In this document: positions 1-64,000 of the stretch, one piece after another
Numbering within the stretch: position 1 is the stretch's first letter
How the letters are laid out: the number at the start of each line of letters is the position of its first letter
DNA from: a virus
Direction: 5' to 3' (one strand)
Virus record (IMG/VR): IMGVR_UViG_3300031578_000013
Coordinates: 1 to 64,000 of that record
Length of the DNA stretch: 64,000 nt
Made by a program: the position numbers and the translations under genes
The notes under the pieces: model-generated
What the model was told of the DNA's origin: nothing
Seen by the model: the letters and a program-made list of their open reading frames with translations, nothing else
Database searches by the model: none

Positions 1-278
1 GGGCACTCGCTGTAAAGCATGGTCTCAATGATGAAGGTATTGTCGAAGGCGTAATCCAGTTCATCGTTATCGCTGTACTGATCGTCTTTGTTCCGGGTAT
101 CCTCTATGTGGTCAGCACTGGAGCAATCGAAGTTCCTGTTGGAACAATCTTCTACAACGCATCGCAATCAACCAACACAAACGTTGCAAACGGTGTTTCA
201 ACGATTGGTGTGATTCCCACCATCTTTGCCATTGTGCTCATCATCGGTGTGCTCATGTTACTGGCAATGAGGAGATAA
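1..278 (+). CDS. Two-TM capsid-like protein, copy 1 (5' truncated)
   Basis: The gene runs off the left edge; the readable frame starts at base 3 and gives 91 residues ending in LLAMRR. It has two hydrophobic helices separated by a polar loop of about 27 residues that carries one N-glycosylation sequon (NAS, in FYNAS). It is a tandem paralogue of the next gene, and both helices are nearly identical. Small proteins with paired hydrophobic helices are the capsid building block of spindle-shaped archaeal viruses; assignment to that group is inferred from shape and context. A pilin is less likely because the hydrophobic segments are internal and paired. Confidence 0.75.
   Translation, partial: ALAVKHGLNDEGIVEGVIQFIVIAVLIVFVPGILYVVSTGAIEVPVGTIFYNASQSTNTNVANGVSTIGVIPTIFAIVLIIGVLMLLAMRR
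54..109 (+). repeat. 56-bp identical segment, capsid-like copy 1
   Basis: This stretch encodes the first hydrophobic helix and is identical base for base to 427-482 in the second copy, although the flanking codons differ. Identity including third positions suggests recent duplication or gene conversion. Confidence 0.9.
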
Positions 279-306
279 CCCTAAAAACATTTTTGGGGGT
301 ATTCTC

Positions 307-651
307 ATGTTTCTCAAAGAAGAACTACAGTCGAAGATGGAAAGTATTCGTTCTGGTGTTGAACCAACCGTTCGTAGAATGGCAAAGAACGCTGGGGTGA
401 ATGATGATGCAATAGTGGAAGGTGTCATCCAGTTCATCGTTATCGCTGTACTGATCGTCTTTGTTCCGGGTATCCTCTATGTCGTATCAAATTCTGCGAT
501 AGATATCCCAGTGAACACTACGTTCTACAACGCAAGCATTACAACAAATACTAATGTTGCAAACGGTGTGTCTACCATTGGTGTGATCCCGACTATCTTT
601 GCGATAGTTTTGATCATTGGCGTGCTCATGTTACTGGCGATGAGACGCTAA
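307..651 (+). CDS. Two-TM capsid-like protein, copy 2
   Basis: A 114-residue protein. Residues 1-38 are charged and probably amphipathic. A first hydrophobic helix spans about 39-62, a polar loop about 63-89 and a second helix about 90-111, ending in Arg-Arg. The loop has two sequons, NTT and NAS; the NAS is shared with copy 1. A GGGGG-rich leader lies just upstream of the start at 307. The architecture matches the small hydrophobic capsid proteins of spindle-shaped archaeal viruses (known for the family), but no sequence match can be claimed. The neighbouring oligosaccharyltransferase gene suggests that the loop is glycosylated (inference). Confidence 0.8.
   Translation: MFLKEELQSKMESIRSGVEPTVRRMAKNAGVNDDAIVEGVIQFIVIAVLIVFVPGILYVVSNSAIDIPVNTTFYNASITTNTNVANGVSTIGVIPTIFAIVLIIGVLMLLAMRR
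427..482 (+). repeat. 56-bp identical segment, capsid-like copy 2
   Basis: Identical to 54-109; see that entry. Confidence 0.9.
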
Positions 652-693
652 TAAATTTCAAAACATAGTACAAAACAACGAGATTTCCCAAAA

Positions 694-713
694 GGGGTTT
701 GGGTAAAAACCCC
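694..713. terminator. Hairpin between convergent genes
   Basis: Seven-base-pair stem GGGGTTT/AAACCCC with a six-base loop, placed between the stop of the capsid-like gene and the stop of the convergent HNH gene. It could act for both strands. Confidence 0.6.
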
Positions 714-717
714 ACTT

Positions 718-1581
718 TTAAGTGCCACTTCGTCTTCCCCATTGTTGATCTAATAAAGAACCATTTGGATATCGAATGTTATATTCTTCTAACGACAACA
801 TGCATTTATTTCCATATTCAAGTGCGATAGTTTCTCGCAATCTCGTTTCAAATTCCGGTTTGTTGCCTTCTCTCGCATGACACGATTTACATAATGTTGC
901 AAATAACCATCCGGATTTATTATTGTTACAGCATGTGGATTTATCACGTGTTACATGATGGACACTCATGTGTTTGTTGTCATTATCTTCTATCCCGGCT
1001 CTACAAAATATGCATTTATTTCCATATCTCGCCCTTACACGCTTTCGGATTTTTAATATCGGATCTGTCCATTTCTTGCAATATACACCAGCCGTTGCAA
1101 ATCTTTTCCAATCTTCTTCTGGGATACCCTGGTGAGATGCACTCATTTTCATTCTGATGTCTTCTGATATGCTCATACCAACATGACACTCTGCAATTTT
1201 TCCTTTCATCTCATCAGAAAAACTCTTTCCATAATTGTGATTCTTCTCACCGCTTGTCGCAATCCTAATCTTCTCTTTAACCTCCTCTGATAATTGTTTA
1301 CCATAATTATAATGCTTCTCCCCTCTATTGGCATCACCAATCGCCTTTTTTATATACTCTGGTCTGTGCGTTCCATACAAAGGATTCTTATCACCTCTTC
1401 GCGAATCCCCGATTTTCTTTCTTGTCTCTTCTGAAAATACCTTCCCAAAATTGTGATTCTTCTCACCAGAATGTGAGAGTCGCATTTTTTCTCTCGTGGC
1501 ATCACTGGCTGTGTGTCCCGTTCTTGCAAGCCTGTTTTTTTCCAGGTGTTCCGGAGATTGTTTGTAACCTTTCTTTGGCAT
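718..1581 (-). CDS. HNH homing-type endonuclease with NUMOD3 repeats
   Basis: 287 residues. Residues 8-150 contain at least five copies of a short unit of the type S-E-E-x-R-x-K-I followed by G-E-K-N-H-N-Y-G-K, the NUMOD3 DNA-binding repeat typical of homing endonucleases. The C-terminal part has an HNH-like zinc site: a CIFC pair, a VHHVTRD core and an LCKSCH pair. It is inserted on the opposite strand between the capsid-like genes and the oligosaccharyltransferase gene, as expected of a selfish free-standing endonuclease. Its target is not evident. Confidence 0.85.
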   Translation of the reverse strand: MPKKGYKQSPEHLEKNRLARTGHTASDATREKMRLSHSGEKNHNFGKVFSEETRKKIGDSRRGDKNPLYGTHRPEYIKKAIGDANRGEKHYNYGKQLSEEVKEKIRIATSGEKNHNYGKSFSDEMKGKIAECHVGMSISEDIRMKMSASHQGIPEEDWKRFATAGVYCKKWTDPILKIRKRVRARYGNKCIFCRAGIEDNDNKHMSVHHVTRDKSTCCNNNKSGWLFATLCKSCHAREGNKPEFETRLRETIALEYGNKCMLSLEEYNIRYPNGSLLDQQWGRRSGT

Positions 1582-1651
1582 ACGTATTGATATTTGGTGT
1601 TTACACTGTTAATACTTTTGTTATTGTTTAGATAATTGCACCAACAGTAAG

Positions 1652-1662
1652 AAATAAATTTA
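1652..1662 (+). promoter_or_regulatory. TATA-box-like element
   Basis: An AAATAAATTTA stretch about 27 bp upstream of the start at 1689, the spacing expected for a leaderless archaeal transcript. Confidence 0.45.
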
Positions 1663-1688
1663 CATGCACTAACATCATCATAATTACT

Positions 1689-3056
1689 ATGGATAGGCGC
1701 GACTATACATTTCTCGTAATCCTCGCGCTTGGATGTGCAATGCATCTTTCATTGCTCGCAACATCCAACCTTTCAAACTATAACCTCTACGATACCGACA
1801 CATGGTGTTTCGTGTGGATGTATTCGCAATGGTTTCACCTGTCACCACTATCAACATTTAATATTCTTGCATTATTTCCACCAATATTATCAGCGTTATT
1901 TGCAGTATCAATCTATTATCTCATCACTAGGCTATATAATAAAACGGTTGGATTTTATGCCGGAGTAATGTTTGCGATATCACCGGGATTGTTATATCTG
2001 AATAGTATGTTCGGAATGATAGACCATCACCTGATACAAGTCGTGCTTTTCACGCTGTCCATTGTATGTCTTTTGTTGTTATACAAGGAACGCAACGTGT
2101 GGTGGGTTATCCCAATAATCATTTCTCTGATTTGTATTCGTTTTACTTCTCCGGTATTAGACGAGATATATTATGGGTTGTTTATCGTGTGTGCGATCAT
2201 TTGCGCTGTTCATTATTTAATTACACTGCGGTACTACAAAATGGCAGTCTTGACATTTGTGGCTGTTATTGCATCTGGTTTTTGGCTATTACAACCGTTA
2301 AACATTATCCCACGAGCAACAAGTTGGATTTCCTGGGTAGAACCAATTACTGAAATACAACCATCAGATCCAATAATATTCTTGATAAAATTTAACACTT
2401 TATTATTCGTTATCATTTTGGGTGTTGCTTCATTTCATCATTCGGATAAAGATGCACCAGAAATCATATTGATATTTCTTACTGTAGTATTATTCATTGC
2501 GACATTAAGATTTGTCAGGATGGAATATATATTCGCTGCCCCATTGATGATCCTATCGGCGTATTATATTGATAAGTATTTCACACGAGACATATCCCAC
2601 TCCATAATAGCAATATTCCTAATTATATCTATTCTATTCGGATGCGTTATTACAGCAGAGATGATGAGGACTGAAATAAACAACGAGGCATGGGATGGTG
2701 CGCTGAAATTTATATCAAAAGAACCGAATGGGCTGGTTCTATCACATGGGGATTATGGATACTGGATTAAGAATGCCAACCAAACAGAGTTCGATAATTC
2801 AGCGTGGGGAAACGCGCTCAACGGAGGAAAGATATTCACTTCGTCTAATATAACAGCAGCGAAAGAATTGATAATGTCGCATGGTATATCTTATATAATT
2901 GTTACCGAGCGGGATATGCGATATTATGAAGCACAGCAGTTCTATGCAAAATCAACAACTGATTATAATGAGAGCATGCTATTCAAATTAATACGTGGGA
3001 CTTCTGGTTATGATGCGATATATTCAAAAGATGGTATTATAATATATAAGACGTAA
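1689..3056 (+). CDS. aglB: Minimal AglB/STT3-type oligosaccharyltransferase
   Basis: 455 residues, multi-spanning. Family hallmarks appear in order: a YDTD motif at 34-37 in the first external loop (metal-binding Asp), IDHH at 111-114 (second acidic motif), ITEIQP at 220-225 (the SVSE/TIXE external-loop-5 motif with its catalytic Glu), and HGDYGYWI at 353-360, a variant of WWDYG in which both Trp are replaced by His-Gly. A short soluble tail ends near YIIV at 402-405. Typical AglB proteins are 600-1000 residues, so this one lacks most of the C-terminal globular domain. The enzyme family transfers a lipid-linked glycan to Asn in N-X-S/T. It sits between the capsid-like genes and a sequon-rich spike candidate. 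The altered WWDYG motif could change sequon recognition. Confidence 0.85.
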   Translation: MDRRDYTFLVILALGCAMHLSLLATSNLSNYNLYDTDTWCFVWMYSQWFHLSPLSTFNILALFPPILSALFAVSIYYLITRLYNKTVGFYAGVMFAISPGLLYLNSMFGMIDHHLIQVVLFTLSIVCLLLLYKERNVWWVIPIIISLICIRFTSPVLDEIYYGLFIVCAIICAVHYLITLRYYKMAVLTFVAVIASGFWLLQPLNIIPRATSWISWVEPITEIQPSDPIIFLIKFNTLLFVIILGVASFHHSDKDAPEIILIFLTVVLFIATLRFVRMEYIFAAPLMILSAYYIDKYFTRDISHSIIAIFLIISILFGCVITAEMMRTEINNEAWDGALKFISKEPNGLVLSHGDYGYWIKNANQTEFDNSAWGNALNGGKIFTSSNITAAKELIMSHGISYIIVTERDMRYYEAQQFYAKSTTDYNESMLFKLIRGTSGYDAIYSKDGIIIYKT

Positions 3057-3063
3057 AAAAGTA

Positions 3064-3819
3064 TTATTCCCTTTTTCTTACCGATACAAGAAACATTGCA
3101 ATGGCTACGGCAAATCCTATGATAAATGGGGGTAGTGGCGTTTCTTGGACAGTTAACGTTTGATAAGATGCCCCATCATCTCCCCCATTTGCAGGACAGA
3201 TATACCATCCACTCTCAATCATAGAAGCCCGAAGATTGCCACCAATTACCATTGATACTGTTCTTGCTGGCAAATTTGATGTACTGGCATATATTTTTAT
3301 TACAATACGATCTCCGTCAAATAGCGTAGTCGAATTTCGGCGGGCATATGATGTTAGAAATTCTGTAGCCACGGGATTATCAATATCCTCCGTTATGAAC
3401 GGTTTGTAGAATAATTTCGTTTCTACACCAGTAGAACTACGGTTGTATAGTTTAAACTCGATGCGTGTGAGTCCAGTAGCACTTGTAGTATTTAAATATA
3501 CACGCGATCTCCACAACCCAGGCGCAATTGTTGTTACTCCCGGAGAACCATCTGGGGTTACAAATGCACCAAGAAGAACTTCTCCCGATGCCGGGACTAT
3601 ATCTACTGCTTGAACCAACGATTCATCGGCTTTTTCAGGGATATGATCGATTATTTTATACGAACCATCTTTAATTAGGTCAGATGATTCGTTCCAGAAG
3701 AATATATCCTGTTTTCCGCACCATAAGAAATCTTCCGATTCACACGATGCAATAGGAGCAATAATAGCAATCATCGCAATAAAAGAGAGTATAACAACCA
3801 ATCGTTTTAAGTTTGTCAT
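3064..3819 (-). CDS. Secreted C-terminally anchored glycoprotein, spike candidate
   Basis: About 251 residues when started at MTNLKRL, which lies 25 bp from a TATA-like TAATAATAC on the minus strand (about 3843-3851); a start at 3840 is also open. It has an N-terminal signal peptide, an all-beta-looking ectodomain, and a C-terminal transmembrane helix followed by RKRE. Sequons include NES, NTT, NRS and NST. The design of signal peptide, ectodomain and anchor resembles archaeal viral spike or surface glycoproteins. The gene is convergent with the oligosaccharyltransferase gene, and only seven bases separate the two stops. Function is inferred. Confidence 0.65.
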   Translation of the reverse strand: MTNLKRLVVILSFIAMIAIIAPIASCESEDFLWCGKQDIFFWNESSDLIKDGSYKIIDHIPEKADESLVQAVDIVPASGEVLLGAFVTPDGSPGVTTIAPGLWRSRVYLNTTSATGLTRIEFKLYNRSSTGVETKLFYKPFITEDIDNPVATEFLTSYARRNSTTLFDGDRIVIKIYASTSNLPARTVSMVIGGNLRASMIESGWYICPANGGDDGASYQTLTVQETPLPPFIIGFAVAIAMFLVSVRKRE

Positions 3820-3910
3820 GCATAGAATGTAATCATGCAATTGTATTATTACTTTCCATGCTCTGAATAAAAGAAAGACTTAATACAGTTATAGTATCAT
3901 AATCTTCTAT

Positions 3911-48481: not shown

Positions 48482-48691
48482 ATGACAGACTACTACGTTG
48501 TGATAATTGAGAACAAACATGATAATACATCCCGCAGCGTCTTAAAGAATTTCCTGCGCAAGCGAACAAAGGTAGATATGGGAATAACACAGATTTCAGC
48601 AGAGGGTAAAACAGCAAAGGAAATACTCACAACTCTTTTTAGGATCGTGCAGGCTAATCCCCACCAATTCATTGGTGGGATACAGCCGTAA
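48482..48691 (+). CDS. Small protein, unknown
   Basis: 69 residues from ATG 48482, basic centre. Last gene before a 278-base gap. Confidence 0.6.
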   Translation: MTDYYVVIIENKHDNTSRSVLKNFLRKRTKVDMGITQISAEGKTAKEILTTLFRIVQANPHQFIGGIQP

Positions 48692-48828
48692 TTCATGTCA
48701 ACCACAAACTTTATTGTTCGTGGGGTTCTATAATTAATTACAATTACAAAAGAACAAAGCGGAAGATGCTGGTTCTCACGATTTTCATGTTTCTTCACCT
48801 GAAATATGTAATTGTGTAATTTCAATAC

Positions 48829-48897
48829 CGGATTGGGGCTACAATCCGTTGGTGAAACTCCATAGATGCCCGTCAATTTATTGGCGGGAGTGGTCAC
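48829..48897 (+). ncRNA. Structured intergenic RNA candidate
   Basis: In the non-coding 48692-48969 stretch. Hairpin CGGATTG/CAATCCG (829-835/842-848, offsets from 48000), then GTGA/TCAC (852-855/894-897) plus ACT/AGT (857-859/889-891) enclosing hairpin CCCGTCAA/TTGGCGGG (869-876/881-888) with loop TTTA. All stems are perfect apart from one T-G pair. Some bases (GGTGAAACTCC) recall the cobalamin riboswitch, but other parts do not fit. Confidence 0.4.
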
Positions 48898-48931
48898 ATA
48901 ACCAACTTTTCCCAACCCCACAGCAAAGCCT

Positions 48932-56493: not shown

Positions 56494-57056
56494 AACGCCT
56501 GTTAATAGTTTTGTTAATTTTGTGTTTCGTACTTCCAGTCATAGCAGTATCTCCATATATCAACGATCCGATTACAGAAGATTCGTTCGTGTATAAGGAA
56601 GCATCAAAGTCGGAGATACAAACCCCCCCGCTAGTAACTATAGATATCACTCCCTTCCTATCAAGCGGGGCTAAATTAAATAGAAATATCCACGAGAAAG
56701 AACTTCCTTACAATCAAATGGTTACAAATCTCGTCGAGCACGTAAACAACGGGGTTAAGAAAATCAAGACAGTGCAGATATATCCAGAGTCTATTTTGGA
56801 AATGTCCGACGATGCCGAGACAATCAAGCAAACTATGGATGGTAGGGTGAGGCTTGAATTATATTACGGATATCAAACCGCAAAGCCGTGGGCGCAATAT
56901 TACAAAGTAGAGAATTGCGACGCTACAAAATGTAGGGTTGTGAGGGCAGACTTTGCTACACGACAAGTCTGGATAGAAACAATCACAGTAGAAATTGCGA
57001 ATGGGATAACCGGATTGCCCGAATATAATGACTTGCCCAAAGGAGTGAAGATATGA
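56490..57056 (+). CDS. Secreted protein, unknown
   Basis: 188 residues with a signal peptide (about 1-19), no other membrane segment, acidic ectodomain. Overlaps the adhesin gene by 4 bases; likely an accessory of the surface module. Confidence 0.65.
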   Translation: MKRLLIVLLILCFVLPVIAVSPYINDPITEDSFVYKEASKSEIQTPPLVTIDITPFLSSGAKLNRNIHEKELPYNQMVTNLVEHVNNGVKKIKTVQIYPESILEMSDDAETIKQTMDGRVRLELYYGYQTAKPWAQYYKVENCDATKCRVVRADFATRQVWIETITVEIANGITGLPEYNDLPKGVKI

Positions 57057-60000
57057 AACTCTCACATAAAATCCTCATAGGGTTAATCCTGATCGGGATG
57101 CTGGTTGTGCCGGTAAGTGCAACCGTTTATGGTGACAACTTCGCTCCTATAATGTCAAGCAATACCCTATCTAACGGCGTAACTGGCAATACAACGAGTG
57201 CGAGCAGCGAATATAATACGGGGGCTTATGGGGCGTGGGCGGCGTTTGACCGTAATATATATTCCAGCCCAACTCACGGGTGGGTTACAAAAGATAATAT
57301 TGTTGCGGGTTGGCTACAGATAGAAATGCCAACGGGGAAGGTGCTTAAAAAATATACTTTGTCACAGAGTAATTTTTCGAGTCTTGCAGCCAACGCCCAA
57401 GCAGCTCCGAACCAGTGGAATGTTAATGCGTCAAATGATGGCACAACGTGGACGGTTTTGGATACGCAAACTGGTATTCCGTGGGATAATACCGCGAGTG
57501 TCCCTCAAACATTTACAATCTCAAATACCAACTCATATAAATTTTATCAGATTAATGCAACGGCAAATGCCACAAATCCTGCGGCGGCTCTCGGTATTGG
57601 GGAATGGTACTTATACGATGAACTGGTGGCATCGTTTACACCAGTTACTTCTACGGGGTCAAGTCCGTATGGAGTTACATTCACCGATACATCAACCGGG
57701 AGTCCGACAAGTTGGAACTGGAATATTACGGGATATGGAACTAATACATCAATATATTCAACTGCAAGCACATCACAGAACCCGCCGTTCACGTTCTTAA
57801 CGGGCAATTTCACTGTTAATCTCACGGTTACAAATCCATACGGTTCAAACATCTCAACGCAGGTAACGTGGGTGAATGTAAGCACCCCCGCACCAGTTGC
57901 ATCATTCACCCAAAACAAAACCAGTGGGCAATCCCCCCTTGCAGTTCTATTCACAGATACGTCAACGGCAAGACCGATGTTCTGGAATTGGTCTGTTAAT
58001 AGTACCGACTGGACAACCCGCACATGGTATAACTACACCACATCAACCAATCTGGTTCAGACATTCACAACTGCCGGTATCTACAACGTCACCCTGTCAG
58101 TCCAGAATATAACTGAAAGTCCAGACATAAGTACAGTCCAACACGACGTTCTAGTTAATGCAACTCTCATCGCAGATTTCGTAGGAGCGCCACTATCGGG
58201 ACACGCAACGACAGACGTATCTTTCGTTGATTTCTCTGTAGGTGGAGGAATATACTCGTGGGATTGGGACTTCGGAGATGGTGGTACTTCTACTGAAAGA
58301 AATCCAACCCATCCATACTCAACAACAGGAACCTTTGATGTGTCTTTAACTATAGATGGCGCAGATGGAACAAACACAACAACGATGCCGGGCTATATCA
58401 CGATAACGGAAGCATCAGATATCAACCCAGACAGTACCTACCGGTTCAAACCCGATAACAACATCATTAGTAATCTCACGCTTTATAACCGTACAATAGA
58501 AATGGGTAATGTAAATAATGCCACGTATGCCTTGGGATCAACGCTTTTCGACAAAGATCATATTCGAGTTATGCGGGTGCTTCCGAATGCGACAACGTAT
58601 GGTGATATCGTTCTTACGTCTTACTCTATGGACAACACCACCGGCATAGTGAATTGGAATGTCACCCGCCCCGGAGGATTTGCTCCCATTGCAGCATTCG
58701 TTCCGATACTGGATATCGAAATGTTTTATGATCGATATAGTCCCGGAGTTACCGGAGCAGCGTGGGGTAGTGGAACTTTGATCAATGGCACATACCGCAA
58801 TTCGTTCCCGGTAACAAACTTATTAGATTCGCCACTAACATATTCGTGGACAACATACAGCAACTTCAGCGTTGATAATAACGCACCTATTCTCTTCGAG
58901 GATGCGGTTATATTTACCCCAATTGAATTAAACTTCACTCCGAACAGGTGGTTATGGGATTTCGGGGATGGAAATACAACACTCTTAACAACTCCGAGCA
59001 GCATAGCGCACATCTATTCGGGAACACCCAGTACGCTCAACCCCTCACTGACGGCATACATCATAGAAAACACAGCAGTAACAAACACCACGACATTGTA
59101 TGGCGCGATTGTTACTGCATGGAATACAAGTTATGTTAAGGCAGATTTCTCCGCAACCCCAATCACCGGAACTCCCGGCGTTGCAGTTTCGTTTACTGAT
59201 TTATCACAGTGGGGTAGTACAGATGCAGTAAGTGGTCGAACATACAATTGGAGTTTTGGCGATGGGTTGTATTCATCATCACCCTATTCGGATGTAACTG
59301 GAGATGTCTTGCATGTTTATCCAACAGTGGGCGTTTATTCCGTCAATCTCACTGTAAATAACACAATTGATTCTGATCATGTGGAAAAATTAAATCACAT
59401 TACTGTCGCTATAAGTCAGGTTCAGCAAACAACGTGGTACACCCCAAAGCAAATAGGCATCACTGCGGTGTACCGCGATCCCGCAGGCATTCCCATTCCC
59501 AACACCACCCTCACCGTAACTGCAATTGGTTCGAGTATCCCGGCAACTGCAACAACTTCCACGGGAGAATCGTTACAGGCATTATATGGTATAAATCCTA
59601 CCGCAGCAAACCTTATGCTCAACAACACACTTATCATGTCTGGCACAACCGGTGGTGATGGTTCGGTGGCGTTTATTGTAGTAGCAACTATATCATACTC
59701 GGTTGCAGTGACAGATCCAGCAACGGGACTGATATGGACAACGACTCTCTTCCCATCTGATCCAACAGGACTGTATACAGTGTGGGTGGGAGAACTGCCC
59801 TACACATCCCTTGGAAATACCACCCTGACTTATATGAATGCCACGCGGATATATTACACACAACCCGATATTGGCAATGTCACATTTCATATTGATTATC
59901 AGGATATAAGTGGATATACCACGAATGTCTTGTTTGAAGTTATTGATGCTGGTAATATGACTACGGTGTATAGTGCGAATCTTGGAGCACCAGGCACCGG

Positions 60001-60085
60001 TTTATTACAAGCGAATTACACACTGCCTAACAAGATGGGTTATACCTACTACTGGGGATATAATGCTACGAGGGATACACCGTGA
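57053..60085 (+). CDS. Large PKD-domain adhesin/spike
   Basis: 1010 residues. Signal peptide 1-23. Residues about 40-190 look like a discoidin (F5/8 type C) sugar-binding domain (AWAAFDRN, WLQIEMP, NDGTTWTVLDTQ). Then at least five PKD-type units: VTFTDTSTGSPTSWNW, LFTDTSTARPMFWNW, YSWDWDFGDGG, WLWDFGDGNTT and YNWSFGDGL. The C-terminal part is beta-rich and carries many N-X-S/T sequons. No membrane anchor; the next gene, overlapping by 4 bases, begins with a hydrophobic segment. Presumed surface fibre for host attachment or a cell-surface protein. Confidence 0.8.
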   Translation: MKLSHKILIGLILIGMLVVPVSATVYGDNFAPIMSSNTLSNGVTGNTTSASSEYNTGAYGAWAAFDRNIYSSPTHGWVTKDNIVAGWLQIEMPTGKVLKKYTLSQSNFSSLAANAQAAPNQWNVNASNDGTTWTVLDTQTGIPWDNTASVPQTFTISNTNSYKFYQINATANATNPAAALGIGEWYLYDELVASFTPVTSTGSSPYGVTFTDTSTGSPTSWNWNITGYGTNTSIYSTASTSQNPPFTFLTGNFTVNLTVTNPYGSNISTQVTWVNVSTPAPVASFTQNKTSGQSPLAVLFTDTSTARPMFWNWSVNSTDWTTRTWYNYTTSTNLVQTFTTAGIYNVTLSVQNITESPDISTVQHDVLVNATLIADFVGAPLSGHATTDVSFVDFSVGGGIYSWDWDFGDGGTSTERNPTHPYSTTGTFDVSLTIDGADGTNTTTMPGYITITEASDINPDSTYRFKPDNNIISNLTLYNRTIEMGNVNNATYALGSTLFDKDHIRVMRVLPNATTYGDIVLTSYSMDNTTGIVNWNVTRPGGFAPIAAFVPILDIEMFYDRYSPGVTGAAWGSGTLINGTYRNSFPVTNLLDSPLTYSWTTYSNFSVDNNAPILFEDAVIFTPIELNFTPNRWLWDFGDGNTTLLTTPSSIAHIYSGTPSTLNPSLTAYIIENTAVTNTTTLYGAIVTAWNTSYVKADFSATPITGTPGVAVSFTDLSQWGSTDAVSGRTYNWSFGDGLYSSSPYSDVTGDVLHVYPTVGVYSVNLTVNNTIDSDHVEKLNHITVAISQVQQTTWYTPKQIGITAVYRDPAGIPIPNTTLTVTAIGSSIPATATTSTGESLQALYGINPTAANLMLNNTLIMSGTTGGDGSVAFIVVATISYSVAVTDPATGLIWTTTLFPSDPTGLYTVWVGELPYTSLGNTTLTYMNATRIYYTQPDIGNVTFHIDYQDISGYTTNVLFEVIDAGNMTTVYSANLGAPGTGLLQANYTLPNKMGYTYYWGYNATRDTP

Positions 60086-62171: not shown

Positions 62172-62342
62172 CATTTTCTTTTTCCCGCGTGTGGGGTTCT
62201 GTTAACTTGGTGAGGGATAAAAATGAGTGTTAACCAGAGTGGGATAATCAATAGAAAGAACTCGATTTTTCCTTGGTATAACAAAATCAATCATAATATT
62301 ATAATAATGGACTCCCCCAATAGTCAATTGAGGCAGAAACCC

Positions 62343-63134
62343 ATGACGATTTGTATAGCAGCGATATCTAAAGATGGGGATGATGAGTGCATTGTGCTTG
62401 CAACGGATCATATGGTTTCGTTGGGAGAGGATATTCAGTTTGAACACAACATAAAAAAATACAAACGAATTAACAAAACAACCATTGCTTTATTATCTGG
62501 TCAATTTTTAATGTTTGATGATTTAATAAAATTATCAGACGAGAATTTATGCTATTCTAACATTGCAGAAGAAATATTGCAGAACTTTAAAAATATACGA
62601 AAAGAGAGAATAAAAAATGAAATTTTAGATAGGGCGCAAATAGACCGTGATTTCTTACTTTCTCGTTTATCTGAATCAGAAACAAGTCAAATAATGGGTG
62701 CACTTTTTAAACAAATATACGAATATAGCCTGAGCACAACAATCATATTAGCAGGGTTTGAAGGAAGTAAAGCCGTAATTGGCGAAATTTCTGAAGATGG
62801 AATTGAACATACCCGAGATATGTTCTTTACAACGATTGGAATTGGAGACATAGAAGCACACAATACTCTTCTCTATCAAAAGCACAATATTATAGATCCT
62901 GTTAGAAAAACAATTTATAATGTTTTCAAAGCGAAAAAGCATACAGAACATTTACCCGGAATTGGTAAAGATACAGAAATTTTAATCCTTAAACGAGATG
63001 GCTTAACAGAATTTACCGATTTGGAAATTCTTGAGAAATTATTTAAAAAAGAAAACGATTTTGGTAAGAATCACGAGGACTTAAATAAAATAAAAATTAA
63101 TAGGTCACAGGAGGTTAATGATGTTAAAAAATAA
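62343..63134 (+). CDS. Proteasome-like Ntn hydrolase
   Basis: 263 residues from ATG 62343. If Met is removed, MTICIAA exposes a Thr nucleophile; LATDHMVSLG (the Asp17 region), IKKYKRI (Lys33 region) and LLSGQ (Gly47 region) follow as in proteasome beta subunits. In-frame starts at 62223 and 62307 would bury the Thr. AT-richer than the upstream genes, suggesting separate origin. A peptidase or a non-proteolytic relative; target unknown. Confidence 0.7.
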   Translation: MTICIAAISKDGDDECIVLATDHMVSLGEDIQFEHNIKKYKRINKTTIALLSGQFLMFDDLIKLSDENLCYSNIAEEILQNFKNIRKERIKNEILDRAQIDRDFLLSRLSESETSQIMGALFKQIYEYSLSTTIILAGFEGSKAVIGEISEDGIEHTRDMFFTTIGIGDIEAHNTLLYQKHNIIDPVRKTIYNVFKAKKHTEHLPGIGKDTEILILKRDGLTEFTDLEILEKLFKKENDFGKNHEDLNKIKINRSQEVNDVKK

Positions 63135-63246: not shown

Positions 63247-63408
63247 TCACTCCTCTTTTTCGATAATTATTTTTTTCCCATCAATCTTCATTTTTAAGTT
63301 ATCATTGGGTGCAAACGGAAACGCGCTATCTCTAACAAATTCACTTGGTAGATTTATGCTGTGCCGTGATTTTACGGCATATAGTTTGACCTTTGCTTGG
63401 TTCACCAT
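63247..63408 (-). CDS. AbrB/SpoVT-like regulator
   Basis: 53 residues from MVNQAKVKLY. SRHSINLPSEFVRDSAFPF followed by DNLKMKIDGKKIIIE is the swapped-hairpin AbrB pattern. Divergent from the transposase gene with palindromes between; likely binds there (inference). Confidence 0.75.
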   Translation of the reverse strand: MVNQAKVKLYAVKSRHSINLPSEFVRDSAFPFAPNDNLKMKIDGKKIIIEKEE

Positions 63409-63438
63409 AGTTATTCTTTGGGTTATACGGTATTTAAT

Positions 63439-63458
63439 ACTTTGGTGTATACCAAAGT
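63439..63458. promoter_or_regulatory. Palindrome ACTTTGG...CCAAAGT
   Basis: Seven-base arms around TGTATA, between the divergent AbrB-like and transposase genes. Operator candidate. Confidence 0.5.
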
Positions 63459-63465
63459 GCACACA

Positions 63466-63504
63466 TAAGTATAAATACATACAATAGTATATACTATAGT
63501 ATAC
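63466..63504 (+). promoter_or_regulatory. TATA-like box and ATAGTATATACTAT palindrome
   Basis: AAGTATAAATAC (TATA-like, 63467-63478) is followed by a perfect 14-bp palindrome at 63484-63497 and a GTATAC at 63499-63504. GTATAC also occurs at 63447-63452 within the other palindrome. May be an operator set for the AbrB-like protein or ends of the insertion element. Confidence 0.45.
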
Positions 63505-63524
63505 ACCAACAAGAGGTAAACAAA

Positions 63525-64000
63525 ATGACACAAACTTACGAACCATTAACAACAACCCGCGAGGAACGTGGTGAAGCCATCGCAAAACAGAACGGTCAGA
63601 TTGCGCGACTTGATGACAACCATTACGCAGTTAAATCCCAATCGGGAAATGGAATTTATGAAGTAATGCAGACAGAGATCGGATGGAGATGCACATGCCC
63701 CGACCATCAAACACGCGGCGTAGAATGTAAACATATCATCTCCGTGAAATTAAGCTTTGCGATAAGAAAACACATTGAGAAAATCCGGATTGCACCGGTT
63801 AATTCAACGGCTGATATATGCGTATTCTGTGGTTCATCTCTCATTGTAAAGGACGGGGTGCGGCACAACCAATACGGCGACATACAGGTTTTCTACTGTA
63901 AGGAATGTAATCAGCACTTCACCTTAAACGCAGGATTCGAGGGTATGAAAACATTACCGCAGGATATTACAAGCGCGATGCAGCTCTACTTTAGCGGACT
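63525..64000 (+). CDS. Transposase with SWIM zinc finger (3' truncated)
   Basis: The first 158 residues are visible, from ATG 63525 to the window edge. A SWIM-type motif (WRCTCPD...GVECKHI, about 47-67), a CVFCGS...CKECNQHF zinc ribbon (about 102-127), and GFEGMKTLPQDITSAMQLYF match the N-terminal part of archaeal IS6-like/DDE transposases known in methanogens. The catalytic DDE core lies beyond the edge. An insertion sequence therefore interrupts or bounds the element here. Confidence 0.7.
   Translation, partial: MTQTYEPLTTTREERGEAIAKQNGQIARLDDNHYAVKSQSGNGIYEVMQTEIGWRCTCPDHQTRGVECKHIISVKLSFAIRKHIEKIRIAPVNSTADICVFCGSSLIVKDGVRHNQYGDIQVFYCKECNQHFTLNAGFEGMKTLPQDITSAMQLYFSG

Follow-up and report, generated by a model that had tools for sequence, protein, structure and literature searches.

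Can a virus bring its own enzyme for the N-glycosylation of its surface proteins? The question is raised by one end of IMGVR_UViG_3300031578_000013, a linear IMG/VR virus record of 76,161 bases, whose bases 1–64,000 are the whole stretch analysed here (the window); the last 16 kb of the record were also read. An open reading frame (ORF) at 1689–3056, plus strand, encodes a 455-residue homologue of the oligosaccharyltransferases (OSTs) of the STT3/AglB family. An earlier note, made from the letters alone, had placed this homologue beside capsid-like and spike-like proteins bearing N-x-S/T sequons, and had proposed a self-sufficient viral N-glycosylation cassette. The source is an uncultivated virus, probably of archaea.

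The reading favoured here is that a captured, stripped-down enzyme of this family glycosylates the virus's own surface proteins using a host-made glycan; we consider it as apt to be right as wrong. The product of ORF 1689–3056 would be embedded in the membrane of the host cell, its active site on the outer face, take the host-made glycan from its dolichol carrier and transfer it to asparagines of viral surface proteins during their crossing of the membrane. A secreted protein with PKD repeats would be the first substrate, followed by a small spike and the capsid loops, and the glycosylation pattern of the virion would not be set by the host enzyme alone. The expression and activity of the enzyme are inferred, as are its orientation, the host-made lipid-linked donor and its virion substrates.

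Family and predicted fold

By profile and predicted fold, the product of ORF 1689–3056 is a virus-borne STT3/AglB-type enzyme. It matches Pfam STT3 (PF02516) with 31.3 bits (E 2e-7), above the curated cut-off of 24.5, and the NCBIfam model of archaeosortase-associated OSTs (TIGR04154) with 59.5 bits (E 2e-16), far under the 450-bit cut-off of that model. With its AlphaFold model (pLDDT 80.6, pTM 0.81), the best Foldseek matches are STT3/AglB/PglB catalytic subunits, with E down to 5e-11, and the C-mannosyltransferase DPY19 comes next (E 1.7e-6); all 24 PDB matches at E<=0.001 are STT3/AglB/PglB or DPY19. Its C-terminal domain superposes on the corresponding domain of Archaeoglobus fulgidus AglB-S2 (TM 0.68, 3.2 Å). 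The alignment used for folding was built of OST homologues, and the evidence from fold and from sequence is not wholly independent. Loss of the catalytic pocket, which the earlier note had considered, was not borne out for the metal and catalytic residues. An artefact, whether from a frameshift or from a chance ORF, was rejected, the frame being open over 455 codons and matched along its length, and so was a mis-call of an unrelated multi-pass protein, as fold and profile agree.

The rank of DPY19 raises the question whether the protein is a GT-C enzyme using the STT3 scaffold for another reaction, such as C-mannosylation (like DPY19) or O-glycosylation (like PMT/ArnT). The missing WW of the WWDYG motif (below), a hallmark of Asn-x-Ser/Thr recognition, would fit this. 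Such an enzyme is improbable, however, for sequence profiles match STT3 only, the best OST structures score orders of magnitude better than DPY19, and both the TIXE-type Glu and the DYG are kept.

About 11 membrane spans are predicted from the model, compared with 13 in AglB. The first external loop is shortened, and roughly 120 residues after the membrane region make up the whole C-terminal domain, so that the large C-terminal domain is indeed missing, as had been claimed. The protein is best called a divergent homologue rather than a canonical OST, because neither an intact WWDYG motif nor an intact DK/MI motif is recognized in its sequence.

Single-sequence scans of IMG/VR and GTDB contigs with the enzyme and with the structural proteins of the window found nothing; relatives were reached only with alignments containing cellular OSTs or fragments of A. 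fulgidus AglB. No OST was retrieved from GenBank phage records by tblastn, and no viral structure in BFVD matched the fold at E<=0.001. Two proteins of Nitrosopumilus spindle-shaped viruses matched weakly in BFVD (E 0.31 and 0.89) and may be GT-C enzymes of another kind.

Catalytic motifs and the acceptor pocket

Motifs were compared in a MAFFT alignment with 64 homologues, part of which had been found by a pattern favouring WW. The motifs YDTD, IDHH, ITEIQP and DYGYWI are all in the sequence as first described. The first DXD motif, YDTD (residues 34–37; 1788–1799, plus strand, as for all enzyme features), is the proposed counterpart of Gly-Asn-Asp47 in A. fulgidus AglB; it was placed by eye against homologues, the MAFFT alignment having a gap there. 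The second, IDHH (residues 111–114; 2019–2030), is aligned to the DHH of AglB, counterpart Asp161-His-His163. The TIXE motif, here PITE (2343–2354), lies within PITEIQP (residues 219–225), and its E222 is aligned with a Glu invariant in 64/64 homologues. R277 (2517–2519) is aligned with an Arg present in 97% of homologues and by position corresponds to Arg426 of A. fulgidus AglB, close to the site of the lipid phosphate. The counterparts of D112-H-H, E222 and R277 are given roles in binding the metal, in holding the sequon and at the phosphate site (PMC8342417).

The acceptor side is different. HGDYG (2745–2759), part of HGDYGYWI (residues 353–360), replaces WWDYG; the DYG is kept and both pocket Trp are lost, in agreement with the earlier description. 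The DK motif is degenerate, with Q417 and K421 (2937–2951) aligned to the Lys and Met of homologues. The Ser/Thr (+2) of N-x-S/T is held in a pocket built by WWDYG and the DK/MI motif (PMC3703281, PMC8342417). Judged from these replacements, the Ser/Thr pocket of the 455-residue enzyme is dismantled, and the enzyme therefore probably selects its acceptor sites by a rule looser than, or other than, N-x-S/T. When the DK-motif Lys or Met of the yeast enzyme is changed to Ala, transfer persists and hydrolysis of the lipid-linked glycan is suppressed (PMC8342417), and loss of these two residues is thus compatible with activity.

A degenerate or non-catalytic OST, being a remnant or a binder of lipid-linked glycan or of the host OST that transfers no sugar, would account for the loss of WW and of the DK Lys and Met, the short first external loop and the two membrane helices that are apparently missing. 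We regard it as unlikely: D112-H-H, E222 and R277 are kept in a 455-codon frame of very divergent sequence, which drift is unlikely to preserve, and the predicted fold is intact.

Oligosaccharyltransferases on other viral contigs

Alignment-guided scans found two further OST-bearing IMG/VR contigs, on both of which the enzyme co-occurs with sequons in a capsid-type loop, as the earlier note had suggested searching for. The first, IMGVR_UViG_3300025655_000107 (L006/L078, 38 kb), encodes a 597-residue OST that keeps WWDYG and lacks the large C-terminal domain. It lies about 1 kb from an 88-residue two-helix protein whose loop contains NAT and NNT; a 2035-residue surface protein encoded on the same contig has no excess of sequons. 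The second, IMGVR_UViG_3300035698_028676 (L079, 65.6 kb), encodes a 906-residue, full-length OST with WWDYG, about 5 kb from a 176-residue two-helix capsid-like protein with ten sequons (P 0.0002 in the shuffle test described below). This fusellovirus-like capsid protein matches phrog_5402 (4e-5) and phrog_11172 (1e-3), the families matched by VP3 of the spindle-shaped virus SSV1. Two surface proteins of L079, of 1518 and 1052 residues, have 70 and 40 sequons (35 and 19 expected). GT2, GT4, PMT-like, epimerase and PfkB (sugar-kinase)/cytidylyltransferase genes are also present on L079, and both contigs carry a tyrosine integrase. Taken over L079 and the flanking pieces L081, L082 and L083, this 65.6-kb contig encodes several giant surface proteins rich in sequons.

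In a 49-row tree, the L006 OST groups with Nitrososphaerota OSTs (95/92) and the L079 OST with DPANN OSTs (97/94). The window OST has a long branch and is not placed with certainty; long branches being present, its own position should be read with caution. A single clade of the three viral OSTs was rejected by the approximately unbiased (AU) test (p 3.4e-5), which points to separate origins. Fuller versions of the same enzyme occur independently in at least two unrelated archaeal viruses, and the capture of OSTs by viruses looks both real and recurrent and is apparently undescribed. One form that this could take is an OST that works without the Ser/Thr pocket under a looser or otherwise altered acceptor rule that suits virion proteins, as one of several independent viral captures that extend to a near-complete pathway in L079; this is conceivable, with the balance tilted against it.

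The host could also be the target. The enzyme would then re-glycosylate host surface proteins (S-layer, pili, sheath), blocking superinfection or changing receptor recognition. Host surface glycoproteins are the normal substrates of AglB, aglB deletion in Halorubrum alters, for one virus, both its production and the stability of its particles (PMC10384203), and the host presumably makes the lipid-linked glycan, given the gene content of the record (below). We give this little weight, since the OST is within a few kb of two-helix capsid-like genes on all three viral contigs, giant surface proteins are sequon-enriched on two of the three, and a full-length host-type OST would do equally well on host proteins.

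Candidate substrates and their sequons

The strongest sequon signal of the virus is about 54 kb from the enzyme locus and was missed by the earlier note. It is in a secreted PKD-repeat protein of 1010 residues (57053–60085, plus strand; Pfam PKD_4 E 3e-31), whose N-terminal domain is tail-protein/carbohydrate-binding-like (phrog_17517 tail protein, E 3e-21). N-x-S/T counts were compared with those in shuffled proteins (4000 shuffles) and with the reversed motif. The PKD protein has 42 sequons, compared with 19.4 expected and 16 of the reversed motif (P 0.0002, the floor of 4000 shuffles).

The other candidates are close to the enzyme gene. A spike candidate of 258 residues (3064–3840, minus strand) has a signal peptide and a C-terminal anchor. 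At least four sequons had been ascribed to it, and exactly four are present (NES, NTT, NRS, NST; shuffle P 0.04); profile scans gave it no confident family match. Its C-terminal end PLPPFIIGFAVAIAMFLVSVRKRE resembles an archaeosortase-type sorting signal, and the best NCBIfam match of the OST is the archaeosortase-associated family TIGR04154.

Genes for two capsid-like proteins stand in tandem ahead of the enzyme gene. Copy 2, of 114 residues (307–651, plus strand), has a charged N-terminus, two hydrophobic helices and a loop with NTT and NAS; copy 1 (3–278, plus strand) is 82% identical to it and has NAS in its loop. The described pair, with NAS in both and NTT in one, is thus present, although the contig begins within copy 1. 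The two helices of copy 2 are evident in hydropathy, and the predicted helices 33–63 and 93–113 are of low confidence (pLDDT 62); the fold model is too low in confidence for structure search. Its match to a PHROG virion structural protein has an E of only 0.035. Both copies miss the VP1/VP3 profiles phrog_5402 and phrog_11172, which SSV1 VP3 matches at 9e-42, and comparison with an alignment of VP1, VP3 and the L079 protein (hhalign) gave E 0.003 but a probability of 10%. No orthologues of the window capsid proteins were found. Matches in 41 Methanosarcinia-class genomes were rejected as chance similarity of hydrophobic segments; they fall mostly in one family of frames of about 480 residues, and one frame examined resembles a TrkH-type K+ transporter.

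Evidence weighing against the favoured reading

Several observations count against glycosylation of virion proteins by the window enzyme. The capsid-like neighbours do bear sequons, as had been claimed, but no more than chance gives (whole-protein shuffle P 0.43 and 0.27 for copies 1 and 2; loops shuffled alone, P 0.67 and 0.58). The capsid loops have the sequon frequency expected from composition, and the loop argument fails on numbers. The test is weak in short proteins, because VP1 and VP3 of SSV1, which are reportedly glycosylated, fail it as well (P 0.14, 0.27). Once the PKD protein is set aside, the membrane and secreted proteins of the virus have 29 sequons in all (about 28 expected), and hence no excess. 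The PKD protein itself could be glycosylated by host AglB instead, and N-x-T may be favoured in PKD repeats on unrelated grounds. Enzyme and spike genes converge, an endonuclease gene separates the enzyme gene from the capsid genes, and there is no operon. Trp occupies both WW columns in 64/64 aligned homologues, WW is also found in 11/11 further readable relatives retrieved by no motif pattern at all, and the L006 and L079 OSTs keep it. Changes to WWD are usually damaging, and the loss of WW in the window enzyme may mean lost activity. With the WW and DK pocket residues replaced and the capsid sequons at composition level, the original claim that the enzyme glycosylates the NAS/NTT capsid sites is weakened. 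No close relative was found with which selection on the enzyme or conservation of the capsid loop could be tested.

The donor glycan bears on the same point. A profile search with positive controls in 14/14 genomes found no GT2 (PF00535) and no GT1/GT4 (PF00534) on the 76-kb record, and no glycan-synthesis families occur among the other record proteins scanned. The lipid-linked glycan would therefore probably come from the host, and the window virus is probably not self-sufficient for N-glycosylation; self-sufficiency of the cassette first proposed is not supported here. L079, not the window, is a plausible self-sufficient N-glycosylation cassette.

Relation to known systems

With AglB, STT3 and PglB (PF02516; 7e9s, 3waj, 5ogl, 8agc), the window enzyme has in common the predicted fold, the metal-site motifs, the TIXE-type Glu, the Arg, the DYG and a small mixed alpha/beta C-terminal domain. 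It differs in its length of 455 residues, HG for WW, the replaced DK Lys and Met, the short first loop and the reduced number of helices. Two A. fulgidus proteins, AglB-S1 and AglB-S2 (591 and 593 residues), were called the shortest known members of STT3/AglB/PglB in 2013 (PMC3703281). Their C-terminal domain is reduced to a central core, as in the window enzyme; in contrast, they are chromosomal, about 135 residues longer, and have WWDYG and a variant DK motif. The L006 OST is also virus-borne, lacks the large C-terminal domain and is near a two-helix protein with loop sequons, and it is unlike the window enzyme in keeping WWDYG. The L079 OST resembles it in being virus-borne and in its vicinity to a two-helix capsid-like protein and giant sequon-rich surface proteins, and differs in being full-length, with WWDYG and glycan-synthesis genes alongside.

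Fuselloviridae and other spindle-shaped viruses (SSV1 VP1/VP3) have two hydrophobic helices and a sequon-bearing loop, as do the window capsid copies. The SSV1 capsid proteins were reported to be glycosylated (Quemin 2015, as cited in PMC10384203 and PMC10866085). According to PMC10866085, SSV1 depends on its host for glycosylation, while glycosylation genes are present in His1 and NSV1. Huangdivirus of Bathyarchaeia is a spindle-type provirus with sequons in VP1/VP3, and its own glycosyltransferase has been proposed to glycosylate the capsid (PMC10848311); this is a glycosyltransferase and not an OST as in the window. A Cariaco Basin paper on viral N-glycosylation genes was rejected as a precedent, since it concerns UDP-sulfoquinovose synthase. 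No report of a virus-encoded OST was found in the literature (open-licence papers).

Gene content of the record and host

The record encodes an NrS-1-type primase (phrog_1829, E 8e-68), and profile scans also found integrase, nuclease, methyltransferase and homing-endonuclease genes. A NUMOD3/HNH homing endonuclease (718–1581, minus strand; Pfam NUMOD3 E 5e-29) sits between the capsid-like genes and the enzyme gene; it had been overlooked before and is probably not part of the glycosylation system. Scans of the record gave no tRNA or Rfam RNA, and there are no cellular housekeeping genes among the record proteins scanned. Phage-type replication and integration genes, together with the lack of tRNA and Rfam RNA, fit a virus.

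No record protein has a confident match to a known capsid family, and pieces of mobile elements are common to the record and to Methanosarcinia-class genomes. The record could accordingly be another archaeal mobile element or a mis-assigned piece of chromosome, with the OST an ordinary cellular gene, which is very improbable in view of the gene content above. Moreover, when 238 genomes of one methanogen-type class were scanned, most of the matches listed were longer AglB frames of the ordinary sort, and no near relative was among them. The concern that the enzyme occurs only in host chromosomes was not borne out, as the gene lies on a virus record.

The mobile-element pieces are of two kinds. 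An apparent non-autonomous IS200/IS605-like element with palindromic ends is at 48650–48902, and its right end has 83–85% identity to Methanosarcinia-class sequence just 3' of an apparent TnpB C-terminus. An IS240-type DDE transposase is at 63312–63998 of the window and at 3526–4632 of L002; part of it has 76% DNA identity to a copy in a Methanosarcinia-class genome. Together these sequences give a weak hint of a methanogen-type host. At 62223–63134, a 303-residue protein has a weak proteasome-subunit match (E 0.0055, below the cut-off).

A 1409-residue protein (L002, 9036–13265) has no family match. Each of the other two OST-bearing contigs also encodes a single giant protein that has few sequons or none and for which no membrane span is predicted (L082, 11619–17102; L084, 5684–11029), and the giant span-less proteins of the three contigs are perhaps an internal virion protein. 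The viral contigs L003, L004 and L005 have the same replication module as the record (primase 55–99% identical), and L003 is nearly identical to it over the genes in common; no OST was found on these fragments.

Significance

Archaeal virions are known to be N-glycosylated, and the literature found credits the transfer to host AglB, the viruses contributing glycosyltransferases at most. A virus-encoded transfer enzyme would let a virus choose which of its own proteins are decorated, and the presence of separately derived OSTs on three contigs points to a recurring, testable strategy. If active, the 455-residue enzyme would show how far an OST can be reduced and whether it can do without the Ser/Thr pocket, matters of direct relevance to sequon recognition.

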